Origin: Hufsiella ginkgonis
Lineage (GTDB): Bacteria; Bacteroidota; Bacteroidia; Sphingobacteriales; Sphingobacteriaceae
Direction: 5' to 3'
Length of the DNA: 64,000 nucleotides
Assembly: GCF_009834915.1 (NCBI RefSeq)
Contig: NZ_WVHS01000002.1
Coordinates: forward strand, 372,001-436,000
The notes beneath the pieces are model-generated. The model was not told the origin of the DNA. It was given only the letters and a program-made list of their open reading frames with translations, and made no database searches. Position numbers and translations under genes: made by a program. Every line of letters begins with the position of its first letter. Position 1 is the stretch's first letter. This document shows positions 26,341-33,360 of the stretch, piece after piece.

Positions 26341-27525
26341 ATGAAAAATAGCGGTTTTATTTTAGGGTTGGCCCTTTTGATCTCCGGCGCAACGACCTAT
26401 GCCCAAAAATCAGAACTAACGAACGCAAAGAAGGGTTACGAAGAGTACCAGTCGTTAAGGAGCAGCGCTGCCGCGTTGAGTACAGCCTCCTTAAAGAAAG
26501 CACAGGTGGCGATCGACAAAGCCACAATACACGAAAAAACTTTGGCCGATCCGGAAGTTTGGAGCTACCGCGCGAACATTTATGCCGGTCTCGCTTCGCT
26601 TGATACCATTAATGCGAAGATCGATCCGATGATCGCGGAATCCGCAAAAGCCATTAAAAAGGCGACAGAGCTCGATACGAAAGGCGAGCAAAAAGCAAAT
26701 ATCGCGATCGCAACAGAAACATTGGCTTCAATTGCCCTTAACAAAGGGGTGAGGGCATACAAAAGCGCCAAGTACGGCGATGCTTTCAAGGCCTTCGAAG
26801 AATCTGCGGCGTTTTCAGGCGCAGGCAAAGATACTACCGCCTTATATTACTCAGCCATTTCCGCACAGAACGCAAAAGATTACCAGGGAGCGATCAAGCA
26901 GTATACCGCGTTATTAAGCTCAAATTACTCGATGCTGGAAGATGTATATTCGAACCTTTCTATCCTTTATGCCTCTCCGACAGTGAAAGACACCGCTGCT
27001 GCGATCCGGATCGCCGGGGAAGGAGTGAAACGCTTTCCTAAGAATTCTGTGTTAGCCACCCGCGAGATCGAGTTCAGCCTCATGACAGGTAAGGAGAAAG
27101 AGATCATCGGTAAGATAGATGCCCAGGCTGCAAAAGAGCCCACCAACAAGCTATTACCTTACTACCTTGGAATCGCCTATAATTCACTAAAAGACTATAA
27201 AAAAGCGGAAGACGCGTATAAAAGAGCGATCGCTATTGACCCTTCTTTTGATAACGCGAACATCAACCTCGGCGGATTGATCATGAACTCCGGCATCGAG
27301 ATCTATAACGCCACCAACAAGCTTCCTGCCAGCAAAACGGCAGAATACAAGGCTGGTATGGCTAAGGCAAATGCCGAATTCGACCGCGCGTTGCCTTACC
27401 TGGAAAAATCAACACAGCTAAACCCTAAATCGGAACTGGCCTGGAGAAACCTGAGAACTTACTATATGATTAAGAACAACCAGGCAAAGGTTGATGAAGT
27501 ACAGAAAAAACTGGATGAGTTGTAG
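26341..27525 (+). CDS. Exported TPR protein
   Basis: A 394-residue protein with signal peptide (MKNSGFILGLALLISGATTYA). It is lysine- and alanine-rich and helical, with TPR motifs at EVWSYRANIYAGLASLD, AKYGDAFKAFEESAAF, KDYQGAIKQYTALLSS, and LLPYYLGIAYNSLKDYKKAEDAYKRAIAIDPSF followed by the last repeat SELAWRNLRTYYMIKNNQAKVDE. It resembles the preceding gene in plan and is probably a paralogue. No enzymatic motif was found. It is the last gene of the gyrA operon, closed by the hairpin at 27571-27610. Its ATGAAAAAT start region is complementary over nine bases to the linker of the candidate small RNAs at 32029-32051 and 32334-32356. Confidence 0.85.
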   Translation: MKNSGFILGLALLISGATTYAQKSELTNAKKGYEEYQSLRSSAAALSTASLKKAQVAIDKATIHEKTLADPEVWSYRANIYAGLASLDTINAKIDPMIAESAKAIKKATELDTKGEQKANIAIATETLASIALNKGVRAYKSAKYGDAFKAFEESAAFSGAGKDTTALYYSAISAQNAKDYQGAIKQYTALLSSNYSMLEDVYSNLSILYASPTVKDTAAAIRIAGEGVKRFPKNSVLATREIEFSLMTGKEKEIIGKIDAQAAKEPTNKLLPYYLGIAYNSLKDYKKAEDAYKRAIAIDPSFDNANINLGGLIMNSGIEIYNATNKLPASKTAEYKAGMAKANAEFDRALPYLEKSTQLNPKSELAWRNLRTYYMIKNNQAKVDEVQKKLDEL

Positions 27526-30969: not shown

Positions 30970-31953
30970 CTAAGCCTCTACCTGCTCTTTCTTATTTTTA
31001 AACGCTTCACGCGGCTTGAGGCCCAATAGTTCGAACATCTGCATATCCTCGCTGAAAGCGGGGTTCGGGGTGGTGAGCAGTTTATCTCCGGCGAAAATAG
31101 AATTCGCACCTGCCATGAAACAAAGCGCCTGGTCGGTCATGCTCATTTCGGTGCGCCCGGCAGATAACCGCACCACCGTTTTCGGCATAATGATCCGGGC
31201 CGTTGCAATCATCCGCACCATATCCCATACGGGCACCTTTGGCTGATCGGCCATTGGCGTTCCTTTTACCGGGACCAGTGCGTTGATGGGTACCGATTCC
31301 GGGTGCGCGGTCATATTCGCGAGCGTTTTAAGCATAGAGATCCGGTCTTCTACCGTCTCCCCCAGCCCGATAATCCCGCCGCTGCAAACCGAAATCCTGG
31401 CTTTTCGTACGTTTTCAATGGTCTGAAGACGATCATCGAACGTACGTGTGGTAATAATGCGTTTATAGTCTTCTTCAGAAGTATCCAGGTTATGGTTATA
31501 AGCGTACAGGCCCGCATCGGCCAGCCTTTCGGCCTGCGATTCGGTTAACATGCCAAGCGTGCAGCAAACTTCCATACCCATACCGTTTACGGCCTTTACC
31601 ATACCGAGCACCCTGTCGAAATCGCGGTTGTCGCGCACTTCCCGCCAGGCCGCGCCCATACAGAGACGGGACGCACCTTTATCCCTCGCGTTAGCGGCTG
31701 CCGCGGTCACCTGGTCCAGCGACATCAATGCGTGAACGGCTACATCGGTATGGTAACGCGCGGCCTGCGGACAATAAGCGCAGTCCTCCGGGCAGCCGCC
31801 GGTTTTGATCGAAAGGAGACTGCTGATCTGTACTTCTGCATAATCCTCATTTTCCCGGTGCACGGAAGCTGCCCGGTAGATCAGGTCCAGCAACGGACTG
31901 TGATATATTTCTTCGATCTCTTCTTTTGTCCAGTTATGTCTTATTTCGTTCAT
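30970..31953 (-). CDS. bioB: Biotin synthase
   Basis: A 327-residue radical-SAM enzyme started at [13 protein letters not shown] (31953), which matches the usual beginning; a longer frame adds seven residues. The [4Fe-4S] site reads [20 protein letters not shown] (CxxxCxxC), and the auxiliary-cluster residues lie in [17 protein letters not shown] and [11 protein letters not shown]. It inserts sulfur into dethiobiotin, the last step of biotin synthesis. Other bio genes are absent here. Two candidate small RNAs lie upstream on the same strand; the nearer one ends in a terminator 46 bp before this start codon, so it might act as a leader/attenuator instead of an independent RNA. Confidence 0.96.
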
Positions 31954-31998
31954 GATATTCTGTAGCGGTGCCAATATGAGGAAAAAAATCGTCGTTAC

Positions 31999-32068
31999 AA
32001 AAAAGGGCCGAATACAAGTATTCGACCCTACATCTACCTATGAAAAACATGCCCTTGGAAGGGCGTTA
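31999..32068 (-). ncRNA. Candidate small RNA, copy A
   Basis: A likely ~65-70 nt minus-strand transcript. It begins with a hairpin (GCCCT, loop UCCA, AGGGC; 32052-32065), continues with a linker that is identical over 23 nt to copy B (32029-32051), and ends with a terminator hairpin (32005-32028, arms GGGUCGAAUA/UAUUCGGCCC, CUUG loop) plus a run of six U (31999-32004). The U-G pair in the terminator becomes a C-A mismatch on the plus strand, which fixes the direction. A perfect -7 box lies at 32069-32076. No known family is recognised. It may also be an attenuator of bioB. Confidence 0.6.
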
Positions 32069-32076
32069 CAAATATA
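32069..32076 (-). promoter_or_regulatory. -7 box (TATATTTG) of small RNA copy A
   Basis: An exact TAnnTTTG match on the minus strand, placing the transcription start within the first bases of the 5' hairpin. Confidence 0.5.
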
Positions 32077-32301
32077 ACTATAAAATGACATTACCAACAA
32101 TAAACGGAAAAATTGTTTAAACTCGTAATTTCACCTTAAGATATTATTTATCAATTAGTTAATTCCAAATTAGGTCACCGGGCCGCCTGTTTGGAATGAA
32201 TATGGTACCTATGTACCGTTATTATAAAATAACTAAAACCGTTGCTACCTTTGTTTGTTCTTACCATACATCGATAAGGTACCAGTCTTACATTCACCTA
32301 C
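32077..32301. other. AT-rich spacer between the two small-RNA copies
   Basis: No reading frame is convincing here. There is a short hairpin GGTAC-CTAT-GTACC near 32207-32220 and a plus-strand TACCTTTG box at 32246-32253 with no obvious gene close downstream. No third copy of the 23-nt linker is present. Confidence 0.4.
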
Positions 32302-32378
32302 AAAAAAGGCCGATTGCTAACGCAAACCGGCCTTACATCTACCTATGAAAAACATGTCCTTTGGGAGGACATTTATTC
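32302..32378 (-). ncRNA. Candidate small RNA, copy B
   Basis: Second copy of the element. The 5' hairpin (AUGUCCU, loop CCCAA, AGGACAU; about 32354-32372) shows a compensatory change relative to copy A (C-G replaced by U-A in the same stem position), the linker 32334-32356 is identical over 23 nt, and the terminator hairpin (32308-32332, arms GGCCG/CGGCC with inner UUGC/GCAA and a GUUA loop) has a different sequence but the same place, followed by six U (32302-32307). Upstream, TAACCTTTG (about 32383-32391) is a near-consensus -7 box with one extra spacer base. It is divergent from the TauE-like gene at 32542. Confidence 0.58.
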
Positions 32379-32432
32379 TTAGACAAAGGTTATACCAAAC
32401 ACTTCCTTCTTCAAAATCCTCAATTTCCCAGG

Positions 32433-32541: not shown

Positions 32542-33360
32542 ATGTCTGTTCTGATACTTGTAATACTGGGATTGGCGGTCGGCGCGTTTGGAACGCTGAT
32601 CGGCGCCGGCGGCGGATTTATCCTGGTGCCTGTTCTTTTAATCGCTTACCCAGAAAAAAAGCCGGAACTGATCACCAGCATCTCCTTAGCGGTGGTATGC
32701 CTCAACGCGGCATCCGGGTCCGTTGCCTATGCGTTTAAAAAACGGATAGATTATAAATCGGCCCTGATCTTCTGCATTACGACGCTGCCGGGTTCCATTA
32801 TCGGGTCTTACCTTACCGGGTATATCCCCCGCCACGTGTTTAACCTGGTTTTCGGCCTCATGTTGGTCATGATATCTGCTATGCTGATTATCAAGCCTTT
32901 TCGCTCATCCGTTGCAGGCAATGACCTCGCTTCTAAATTTATATTCCCCACCATACGAAAAATGACCGACAAGTATGGTGAAAAATACACCTATCGGTAC
33001 GACATTATCACGGCCTGTATCCTCAGTTTTTTTGTAGGTATCGCATCCAGCCTGCTGGGAATCGGCGGTGGCATTATCCATGTGCCCGCTATGGTAAACC
33101 TGCTCAATTTCCCCGTACACATCGCTACGGCAACTTCGCACTTCGTACTCGCACTGATGGGCTTTTCCGGGTCTGCCGTCCACTGGCTAAAAGGCGACCT
33201 CCAGGAAGGCCTCCACCAGGTGATCTGGCTTGGCGTGGGCGTAATTGGCGGAGCGCAGGTCGGGGCCGCCCTTTCTAACAAAGTAAAGGAGGCCATCATT
33301 ATCCGCAGCCTTGCCGTAGCGCTCGGAATCGTCGCCATCCGGATCCTCTGGATGGTATAA
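32542..33360 (+). CDS. TauE/SafE-family anion transporter
   Basis: A 272-residue membrane protein with about eight hydrophobic helices in two related halves, each starting with a glycine-rich motif: GLAVGAFGTLIGAGGGFILVP near residue 10 and VGIASSLLGIGGGIIHVPAM near 165. That duplicated pattern defines the TauE/SafE (sulfite exporter-like) family, which moves sulfonates, sulfite or other organic anions across the inner membrane. The substrate cannot be told from sequence. The central cytoplasmic loop holds charged residues (TIRKMTDKYGEKYTYRYD). It is monocistronic. Confidence 0.9.
   Translation: MSVLILVILGLAVGAFGTLIGAGGGFILVPVLLIAYPEKKPELITSISLAVVCLNAASGSVAYAFKKRIDYKSALIFCITTLPGSIIGSYLTGYIPRHVFNLVFGLMLVMISAMLIIKPFRSSVAGNDLASKFIFPTIRKMTDKYGEKYTYRYDIITACILSFFVGIASSLLGIGGGIIHVPAMVNLLNFPVHIATATSHFVLALMGFSGSAVHWLKGDLQEGLHQVIWLGVGVIGGAQVGAALSNKVKEAIIIRSLAVALGIVAIRILWMV

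Follow-up and report, generated by a model that had tools for sequence, protein, structure and literature searches.

Among the sRNAs which invite comparison, the Qrr sRNAs of Vibrio are sigma-54-dependent siblings with one pairing core, and the RybB/MicA-type sRNAs of enterobacteria are driven by sigma-E, an ECF factor, and aimed at envelope mRNAs. Few publications were found on sRNA regulation in Bacteroidota outside Bacteroides. The closest described system is FopS (RF04319, BTncRNA_FopS), which comprises 14 paralogous sRNAs of Bacteroides thetaiotaomicron, ~65-70 nt long and preceded by sigma-A-type promoters, as described in the accessible part of the respective study (PMC11697453). According to the same part, the FopS 5' seed GUUUUUCAU represses susC mRNAs by pairing at their translation starts, and the protein RbpB, to which FopS binds via its 5' part, counteracts this effect (PMC11697453). 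The sRNA GibS of B. thetaiotaomicron is described there as having the R1 seed in common with FopS, besides a non-canonical promoter and a second seed, R2 (PMC11697453). Rfp18 of Flavobacterium is predicted, in the available description, to pair via its third stem-loop with protease mRNAs (PMC9723704).

Two elements on the minus strand of the window (the whole stretch of 64,000 nt that was analysed), hereafter copies A and B, represent a family which is, judged by sequence, FopS-like in predicted seed and layout, but a FopS member by neither score nor 5' structure. Its members are likewise ~65-75 nt long, multicopy, closed by an intrinsic terminator and in many copies preceded by a sigma-A-type promoter, with a predicted single-stranded seed UGUUUUUCAU which is followed by UAGAU and is complementary to AUGAAAAA starts. 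The FopS R1 seed (U)GUUUUUCAU recurs as a 10-nt identity with UAGAU in register; this stretch has no pairing partner in the copy A fold, and in copy B its first U's are partly paired with the 5' end. With the FopS model, whose gathering score is 56 bits, the two copies reach 18.3 and 17.9 bits (E 2.2-2.5), the sub-threshold alignment placing GUGUUUUUCAUgGUAUUAGAUUUAAGG of the window over AUGUUUUUCAUAG--GUAGAUGUAAGG of FopS. Moreover, FopS consists of an unstructured 5' stretch and then the terminator only, whereas the window family features an extra conserved 5' hairpin, another linker half, copies with sigma-54- or ECF-like promoters and 3'UTR boxes. FopS is found in Bacteroidaceae, the window family in another family of the phylum. 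RF04319 exceeded its cut-off in 5 of 395 genomes of the phylum, none of which belongs to the window's own family (f1, taken as Sphingobacteriaceae); 11 f1 genomes were shown without a match. Weaker RF04319 matches in three other families comprise related sequences, e.g., GGUUUUUCAUAGGAUAAGGUUUAAGGG. As a side observation, the loci L370 and L371 (genomes G259 and G757 of family f36) carry GUUUU(U)CAUAGGAUAAGGUUUAA together with a terminator and may form a further FopS-like branch.

The longest identical stretch between linker and FopS was reached by 158 of 20000 shuffles and the alignment score by 19 of 3000 (p ~0.006-0.008), which leaves common descent unproven because FopS was singled out post hoc from ten sub-threshold families, of which several others score higher. 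Common descent with FopS is nonetheless likely from the sequences, and FopS, so far described from Bacteroidaceae, thereby gains a possible deeper origin. At the gathering score, Rfam returned only a tRNA for the whole window; in the sRNA region, searched with Rfam 15 at E values up to 5, the best scores were 24.8 for sbrA (threshold 45) and 21.9 for mmgR/suhB (threshold 41). An earlier note on this DNA, made from its letters, had spoken of a class that it did not recognise and had proposed a comparison with Rfam: no family reaches its threshold for either copy, but the class is now largely explained as FopS-like.

As for the other systems, GibS, compared by its description, shares the R1 seed with FopS and has R2 as a seed of its own. 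The likeness to Qrr lies in sibling sRNAs with one shared core and, by sequence only, in the sigma-54-like promoter of copy B; phylum and sequence differ. RybB and MicA are similar by working mode, the ECF class of the window family consisting of promoter look-alikes only. Rfp18, set against the family by description only, is also a Bacteroidota sRNA kept beyond one species. A literature search by title and abstract start, with most subscription journals and preprints outside its coverage, found no paper on this sRNA family among the entries listed.

Structure and distribution of the predicted small RNA genes

Table 1. Features of the two predicted small RNA genes and of their neighbours, in positions of the window
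Feature	Position	Strand	Basis or remark
sRNA gene A	31999..32067	minus	predicted transcript ~69 nt; covariance model R1 85.0 bits
Copy A 5' hairpin GCCCU-UCCA-AGGGC	32051..32064	minus	sequence and helix 1 covariation
Copy A conserved linker, predicted seed	32029..32051	minus	near-invariance among copies; complementary 3'UTR boxes
Copy A intrinsic terminator, 11 bp (32004-32029) and U6 (31999-32004)	31999..32029	minus	sequence; helix 2 covariation
Copy A promoter box TATATTTG, Bacteroidota sigma-A -7-like	32069..32076	minus	sequence and TAnnTTTG class
Candidate TTG upstream of copy A box	32098-32100	minus	
sRNA gene B	32302..32372	minus	predicted transcript ~71-76 nt; covariance model R1 72.5 bits
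Copy B 5' hairpin AUGUCCU-CCCAA-AGGACAU	32354..32372	minus	sequence and covariation
Copy B conserved linker, predicted seed	32334..32356	minus	sequence; near-invariance among copies
Copy B intrinsic terminator (hairpin 32306-32334, T-run 32302-32307)	32302..32334	minus	sequence and covariation
Copy B promoter TTTGGTATAACCTTTG, sigma-54-like -24/-12	32384..32399	minus	sequence; 11 nt ahead of hairpin
bioB-like gene, downstream of copy A	30970..31974	minus	Radical_SAM and BATS
TauE/SafE-like gene, divergent, on the other side	32542..33360	plus	PF01925

Read on the minus strand, both elements follow the order 5' hairpin, CATG-TTTTTCATAGGTAGATGTA, terminator hairpin and T-run (Table 1), and throughout the family the near-invariant linker AUGUUUUUCAUAGGUAGAUGUR lies between the 5' hairpin and the intrinsic terminator. 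Within 3 mismatches, the 19-nt core matches twice in the window versus never in 100 shuffles. Copy A folds at -23.5 kcal/mol (z -3.69) and copy B at -27.8 kcal/mol (z -4.43), with none of 200 shuffles being equally stable in either case. The earlier note had read two minus-strand elements here, identical over 23 nt (CATG and 19 nt), and both the elements and the identity are present as it placed them. Stem 1 indeed shows the compensatory exchange of C-G for U-A between copies A and B, and the wobble from which the note had argued for the direction of copy A is also present, a single pair that reads U.G on the minus and A-C on the plus strand. That stem 2 changes completely holds for the most part and is a slight overstatement, GGYCG/CGGCC being partly common to the copies. 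Regarding promoters, the box of copy A had been recognised, but the different, sigma-54-like promoter of copy B had been missed. The proposal of structured minus-strand sRNA genes of ~65-75 nt agrees with the covarying stems and the conserved linker, and the covariance-model search of Bacteroidota which it suggested has returned homologues with both.

Two-sided changes were found in 17 of 18 pairs among 88 distinct copies, including all seven pairs of the 5' hairpin, and 94.8% of the cells in this alignment are paired, counts which benefit from the fitting of these copies to the structure model. None of 500 shuffles reached any of five covariation measures, and sliding the partners destroyed the signal. 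The pair counts do not include an initial MAFFT alignment (54 copies), whose 5' arms were misaligned.

A core search that allowed up to 2 mismatches and covered 60 genomes, the window's own included, gave matches in 36, among which are 34 of the 37 f1 genomes. According to manual reading of the match context, carried out for all same-family matches except G030:C12:637761 and G030:C23:387228, at least one copy of the sRNA gene occurs in 30 of these 37 genomes, own genome included, the weakest being that of G005 with 42.5 bits. The remaining seven (G002, G008, G009, G012, G017, G022 and G026) showed only other core sites or none; G008 is 76% and G009 71% complete. The own genome holds two sRNA genes, and in G030 10 of the 14 core sites belong to sRNA genes. 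The exact core was found in at least 120 stretches of named genomes (123 sites among the matches listed), overwhelmingly from Pedobacter, Mucilaginibacter, Sphingobacterium and other Sphingobacteriaceae-type genera; also among the matches listed are some Bacteroidetes MAGs, one Flavihumibacter and three odd cases, i.e., a Saprospiraceae MAG with an exact core (L103) and two non-Bacteroidota MAGs (L141, L163). The latter two were rejected as family copies, the core lying inside ORFs and looking like chance, and L141 was left out of the covariance-model and promoter sets. Covariance model R1 was built from 24 copies without gaps, which with a single exception are of the sigA class. In a class-wide draw of 395 genomes it matched 16, of which 15 belong to f1 and one, G062, to a different family. 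The copies of G062, one sigA-like and the other sigma-54-like, have a core that is slightly altered. That the family consists of sRNA genes is very likely in our judgement. It is widespread in Pedobacter, Mucilaginibacter and Sphingobacterium and offers a testable predicted seed together with a conserved putative 3'UTR partner.

Promoter classes and neighbouring genes

A promoter census of 156 distinct copies, with expectations taken from dinucleotide shuffles, revealed a sigA-like TAnnTTTG near the start in 101 copies (9.8 expected), a sigma-54-like GG(C/T)A(C/T)-N3-6-TTG in 30 (0.78 expected) and an ECF-like G(T/C)AAC-N15-18-(C/G/A)GTA in 11 (0.12 expected), numbers which describe coherence and are no unbiased test because the regular expressions were written after seeing the sequences. 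The labels sigma-A, sigma-54 and ECF follow what we take to be the consensus sequences of these factors. Copy A falls into the first and copy B into the second class; three copies feature both sigA-like and sigma-54-like elements, and 17 of the 156 fit no class. In the sigma-54-like class the usual distance to the hairpin is 13 nt, slightly more than in copy B. The split of the copies into sigma-A-, sigma-54- and ECF-like promoter classes, as judged from their upstream sequences, appears to be new here. An rpoN DNA-binding domain was present in 36 of 37 genomes, and all 11 ECF-type copies are confined to four genomes (G006, G011, G030 and G033). Sigma-54-type tandem arrays occur in Mucilaginibacter, with four copies in M. 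endophyticus (L172:1187-2224) and three in M. pedocola (L157:3523-4262). Most sigma-54-type copies have CTGCGAGAG as their terminator loop, copy B of the window being an exception.

The surroundings differ between the classes. At 12 of 15 hand-chosen loci, a sigA-type copy precedes a flavoprotein gene (PF02441), by our reading probably ubiX, which is mostly followed by Radical_SAM/UPF0004, LGT and inositol-monophosphatase-family genes. A divergent conserved ORF of ~103 aa (MDYNVYLLATDP..CRDVIHSRDT..), without a Pfam match, was found at 15 of 21 sigma-54-type loci (L053, L079, L084, L092, L098, L105, L109, L116, L146, L157, L158, L162, L164, L167 and L172). Ferritin-like proteins are encoded downstream in 9 of these 21 loci, and the one scanned was a Ferritin_2 protein with a TAT signal. 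As in the window, a TauE homologue also lies on one side of the sRNA at L263.

Sites complementary to the linker

Outside the sRNA genes, several near-complementary sites were located directly before the terminator, within the 3'UTRs of small ORFs that resemble one another. The earlier note had looked for pairing at translation starts and did not foresee that the strongest conserved pairing site would be this 3'UTR box and not a start codon. The proteins are roughly 42-57 aa long (MK..FDKQL..IL..DLK.., several ending in LLVA), with no Pfam match for the two members scanned; some of their genes adjoin one for an acidic protein of ~60 aa (EWENP..PE..AD.RD.EQL), likewise without a Pfam match. Profile A1, built from seven of the small proteins and searched in 37 genomes, 23 of them same-family, gave 28 matches in 15 of the 37 genomes, five of these in the own genome. 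For 23 genes, after dropping L328 (same ORF as L315) and four genes originally found through the box, the best linker complement within 110 nt past the stop averaged 12.09 of 19 positions versus 10.48 (sd 0.26) in shuffles, none of 1000 reaching this mean, a result which overstates independence because the small genes are paralogues, some within one genome. In the same 3'UTRs, the controls scored 10.57 (same-sense linker) and 10.74 (reversed complement). A complement of at least 14/19 was present in seven of the 23 genes versus 0.13 expected. Within the own genome, L321 (C22:112692) reaches 15 and L331 (C1:92163) 14, with poorer boxes at L309 (13), L327 (9) and L332 (9). The duplexes predicted for L321 and L331 amount to -19.5 and -16.2 kcal/mol, compared with shuffled-linker means of -10.4 and -9.4, and are undecisive taken alone because single shuffled linkers reach -20.9 and -20.2, respectively. 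Some 3'UTRs contain the box twice (L305, L308, L313). In addition, a sigma-54-like element lies within 260 nt upstream of 5 of 27 small-protein genes versus 0.48 expected; with a looser and uncontrolled pattern, applied to 700 nt upstream, the count is 8 of 28. The small-protein gene family with linker-complementary 3'UTRs is undescribed. It is probable, in our assessment, that the linker serves as a base-pairing seed, and there is comparably good reason to regard the 3'UTR boxes as its genuine pairing partners.

Pairing of UUUUUCAU in the linker with AUGAAAAA starts, as proposed in the earlier note, fits the FopS seed and four starts in Mucilaginibacter, but starts in general showed no enrichment for the remaining part of the linker; the suggested target with nine bases around 26340 (at 26341) matches only the generic ATGAAAAA. 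In the four Mucilaginibacter genes, the linker complement covers the start codon with 18-19 of 19 positions. These are the non-sRNA sites exactly on a start codon among the 123 exact core sites listed (at least 120 loci), and they belong to a fasciclin-domain gene (L080), two GH76 genes (L081 and L147, 86% identical orthologues) and an alpha/beta hydrolase gene (L156). Among the classified sites of 37 same-family genomes, sites with up to 2 mismatches lie on the start codons of seven ORFs of at least 100 aa (L026, L029, L055, L201, L202, L203 and L211; GTG in L029, otherwise ATG), several of which look like lipoproteins. Two shuffles keeping TTTTTCAT gave two and no start-codon sites out of 5 and 9 same-family sites, respectively. 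No SusC was noticed among the start-codon boxes, some of which lie on secreted proteins. Across 1253 starts from the fetched loci, 33 scored at least 13/19 versus 37.5 expected (sd 7.5). Only one of the five starts with at least 15/19 is independent, because L080 and L081 were retrieved on account of their match, L355 and L003 represent the same gene, and L066 corresponds to the antisense strand of an sRNA copy. The L003 hydrolase of the own genome (16/19) was rejected as a conserved target, its orthologues in G001 and G013 scoring 11 and 12. In view of the null result for the 1253 starts and the loss of the L003 box, pairing at start codons is no general rule, although for a few mRNAs it is plausible. 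The exact 12-mer CATCTACCTATG likewise showed no excess in 23 f1 genomes, with 9 non-sRNA and 2 degenerate-sRNA-like sites versus 13 for the reversed control; one shuffle gave 4.

Proposed mode of action and alternatives

The reading which we consider probable as a whole makes copies A and B siblings within a FopS-like family of Sphingobacteriaceae, sRNAs that act in trans by base pairing, with own promoters, a linker seed and boxes in mRNAs; it builds on structure, conservation, promoter classes and 3'UTR boxes, each shown by computation. Copy A would be transcribed by the housekeeping sigma factor and copy B by sigma-54 from separate promoters, and an intrinsic terminator of its own would close each RNA. 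Between 5' hairpin and terminator would lie the single-stranded, near-invariant linker, which as a seed may pair in the cell with mRNAs carrying ACAUCUACCUAU(G)AAAA boxes. In small-protein mRNAs, part of which have sigma-54-like promoters, such a box would lie in the 3'UTR just ahead of the terminator, and this 3'UTR would be either a target under regulation or a sponge that titrates the sRNA. In certain species, boxes also span the start codon in mRNAs for secreted proteins or lipoproteins, and pairing there could bring about repression, by analogy with FopS. With such siblings, one and the same pairing sequence would serve different sigma factors.

The direction of control might also be reversed, the 3'UTRs of small-protein mRNAs titrating the sRNA via their antisense boxes, so that the mRNA regulates the sRNA. 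Boxes located just ahead of the terminator, far from the coding start and sometimes present twice, would suit such a role, as would the sigma-54-like promoters which some small-protein genes have like some sRNA copies; the start-codon boxes elsewhere resemble ordinary repressed targets, and we regard this reversal as a tentative option. An improbable view takes the linker mainly as a binding site for a protein, e.g., an RRM/RbpB-like or other chaperone, for which the sRNAs would be decoys. The near-invariance and single-stranded state of the linker agree with this view, the binding of FopS to RbpB provides a precedent in the part of the study available (PMC11697453), and the own genome encodes three RRM_1 proteins. 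However, RRM_1 was found in 11 of 23 f1 genomes and is missing in 12, and an RRM_1 partner cannot be universal because nine of these 12 carry the sRNA; moreover, it is the complement and not the same-sense linker which recurs in 3'UTRs.

Considered as a cis-acting leader or attenuator, each element would control the gene downstream, bioB here and the ubiX-like flavoprotein gene elsewhere. The recurrence of that flavoprotein gene after sigA-type copies agrees with such a role, but the downstream gene varies, sigma-54- and ECF-type copies adjoin other genes, and each copy has promoter-like and terminator sequences of its own, which makes a leader very unlikely. Even less credence is given to a mobile repeat or a small peptide gene in place of an sRNA: tandem arrays (L172, L157) and a reading frame from AUGUUUUUC in many copies are compatible with it, but flanks, hairpins and promoters vary among copies while the stems covary, and the peptide gene was discarded, the AUG ahead of the linker missing in many copies.

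With base-pairing sRNAs as the preferred reading, a wider scenario can be formulated as a speculation that we would not bet on: a phylum-wide superfamily with the GUUUUUCAU seed might exist, FopS being its Bacteroidaceae branch, and Sphingobacteriaceae might have diversified it by promoter capture into housekeeping, sigma-54 and ECF siblings with one identical seed and evolved a counterpart to it, namely anti-seeds which small-protein mRNAs linked to sigma-54 carry in their 3'UTRs and which act as sponges or as targets under common regulation.

Viral sequences were also considered. Two exact 19-mer matches in IMG/VR were rejected as phage copies, since chance could give two by a rough estimate of the collection size. 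On one viral contig (L005:1883-1951), an exact core and a terminator without the 5' hairpin directly follow a possible capsid ORF, and L006 (IMG/VR) gives a weak covariance-model match. At L374:7832-7849 of IMG/VR, the core complement lies on an apparent start codon (MKNTLRTLRIAV...), with a second similar box upstream.
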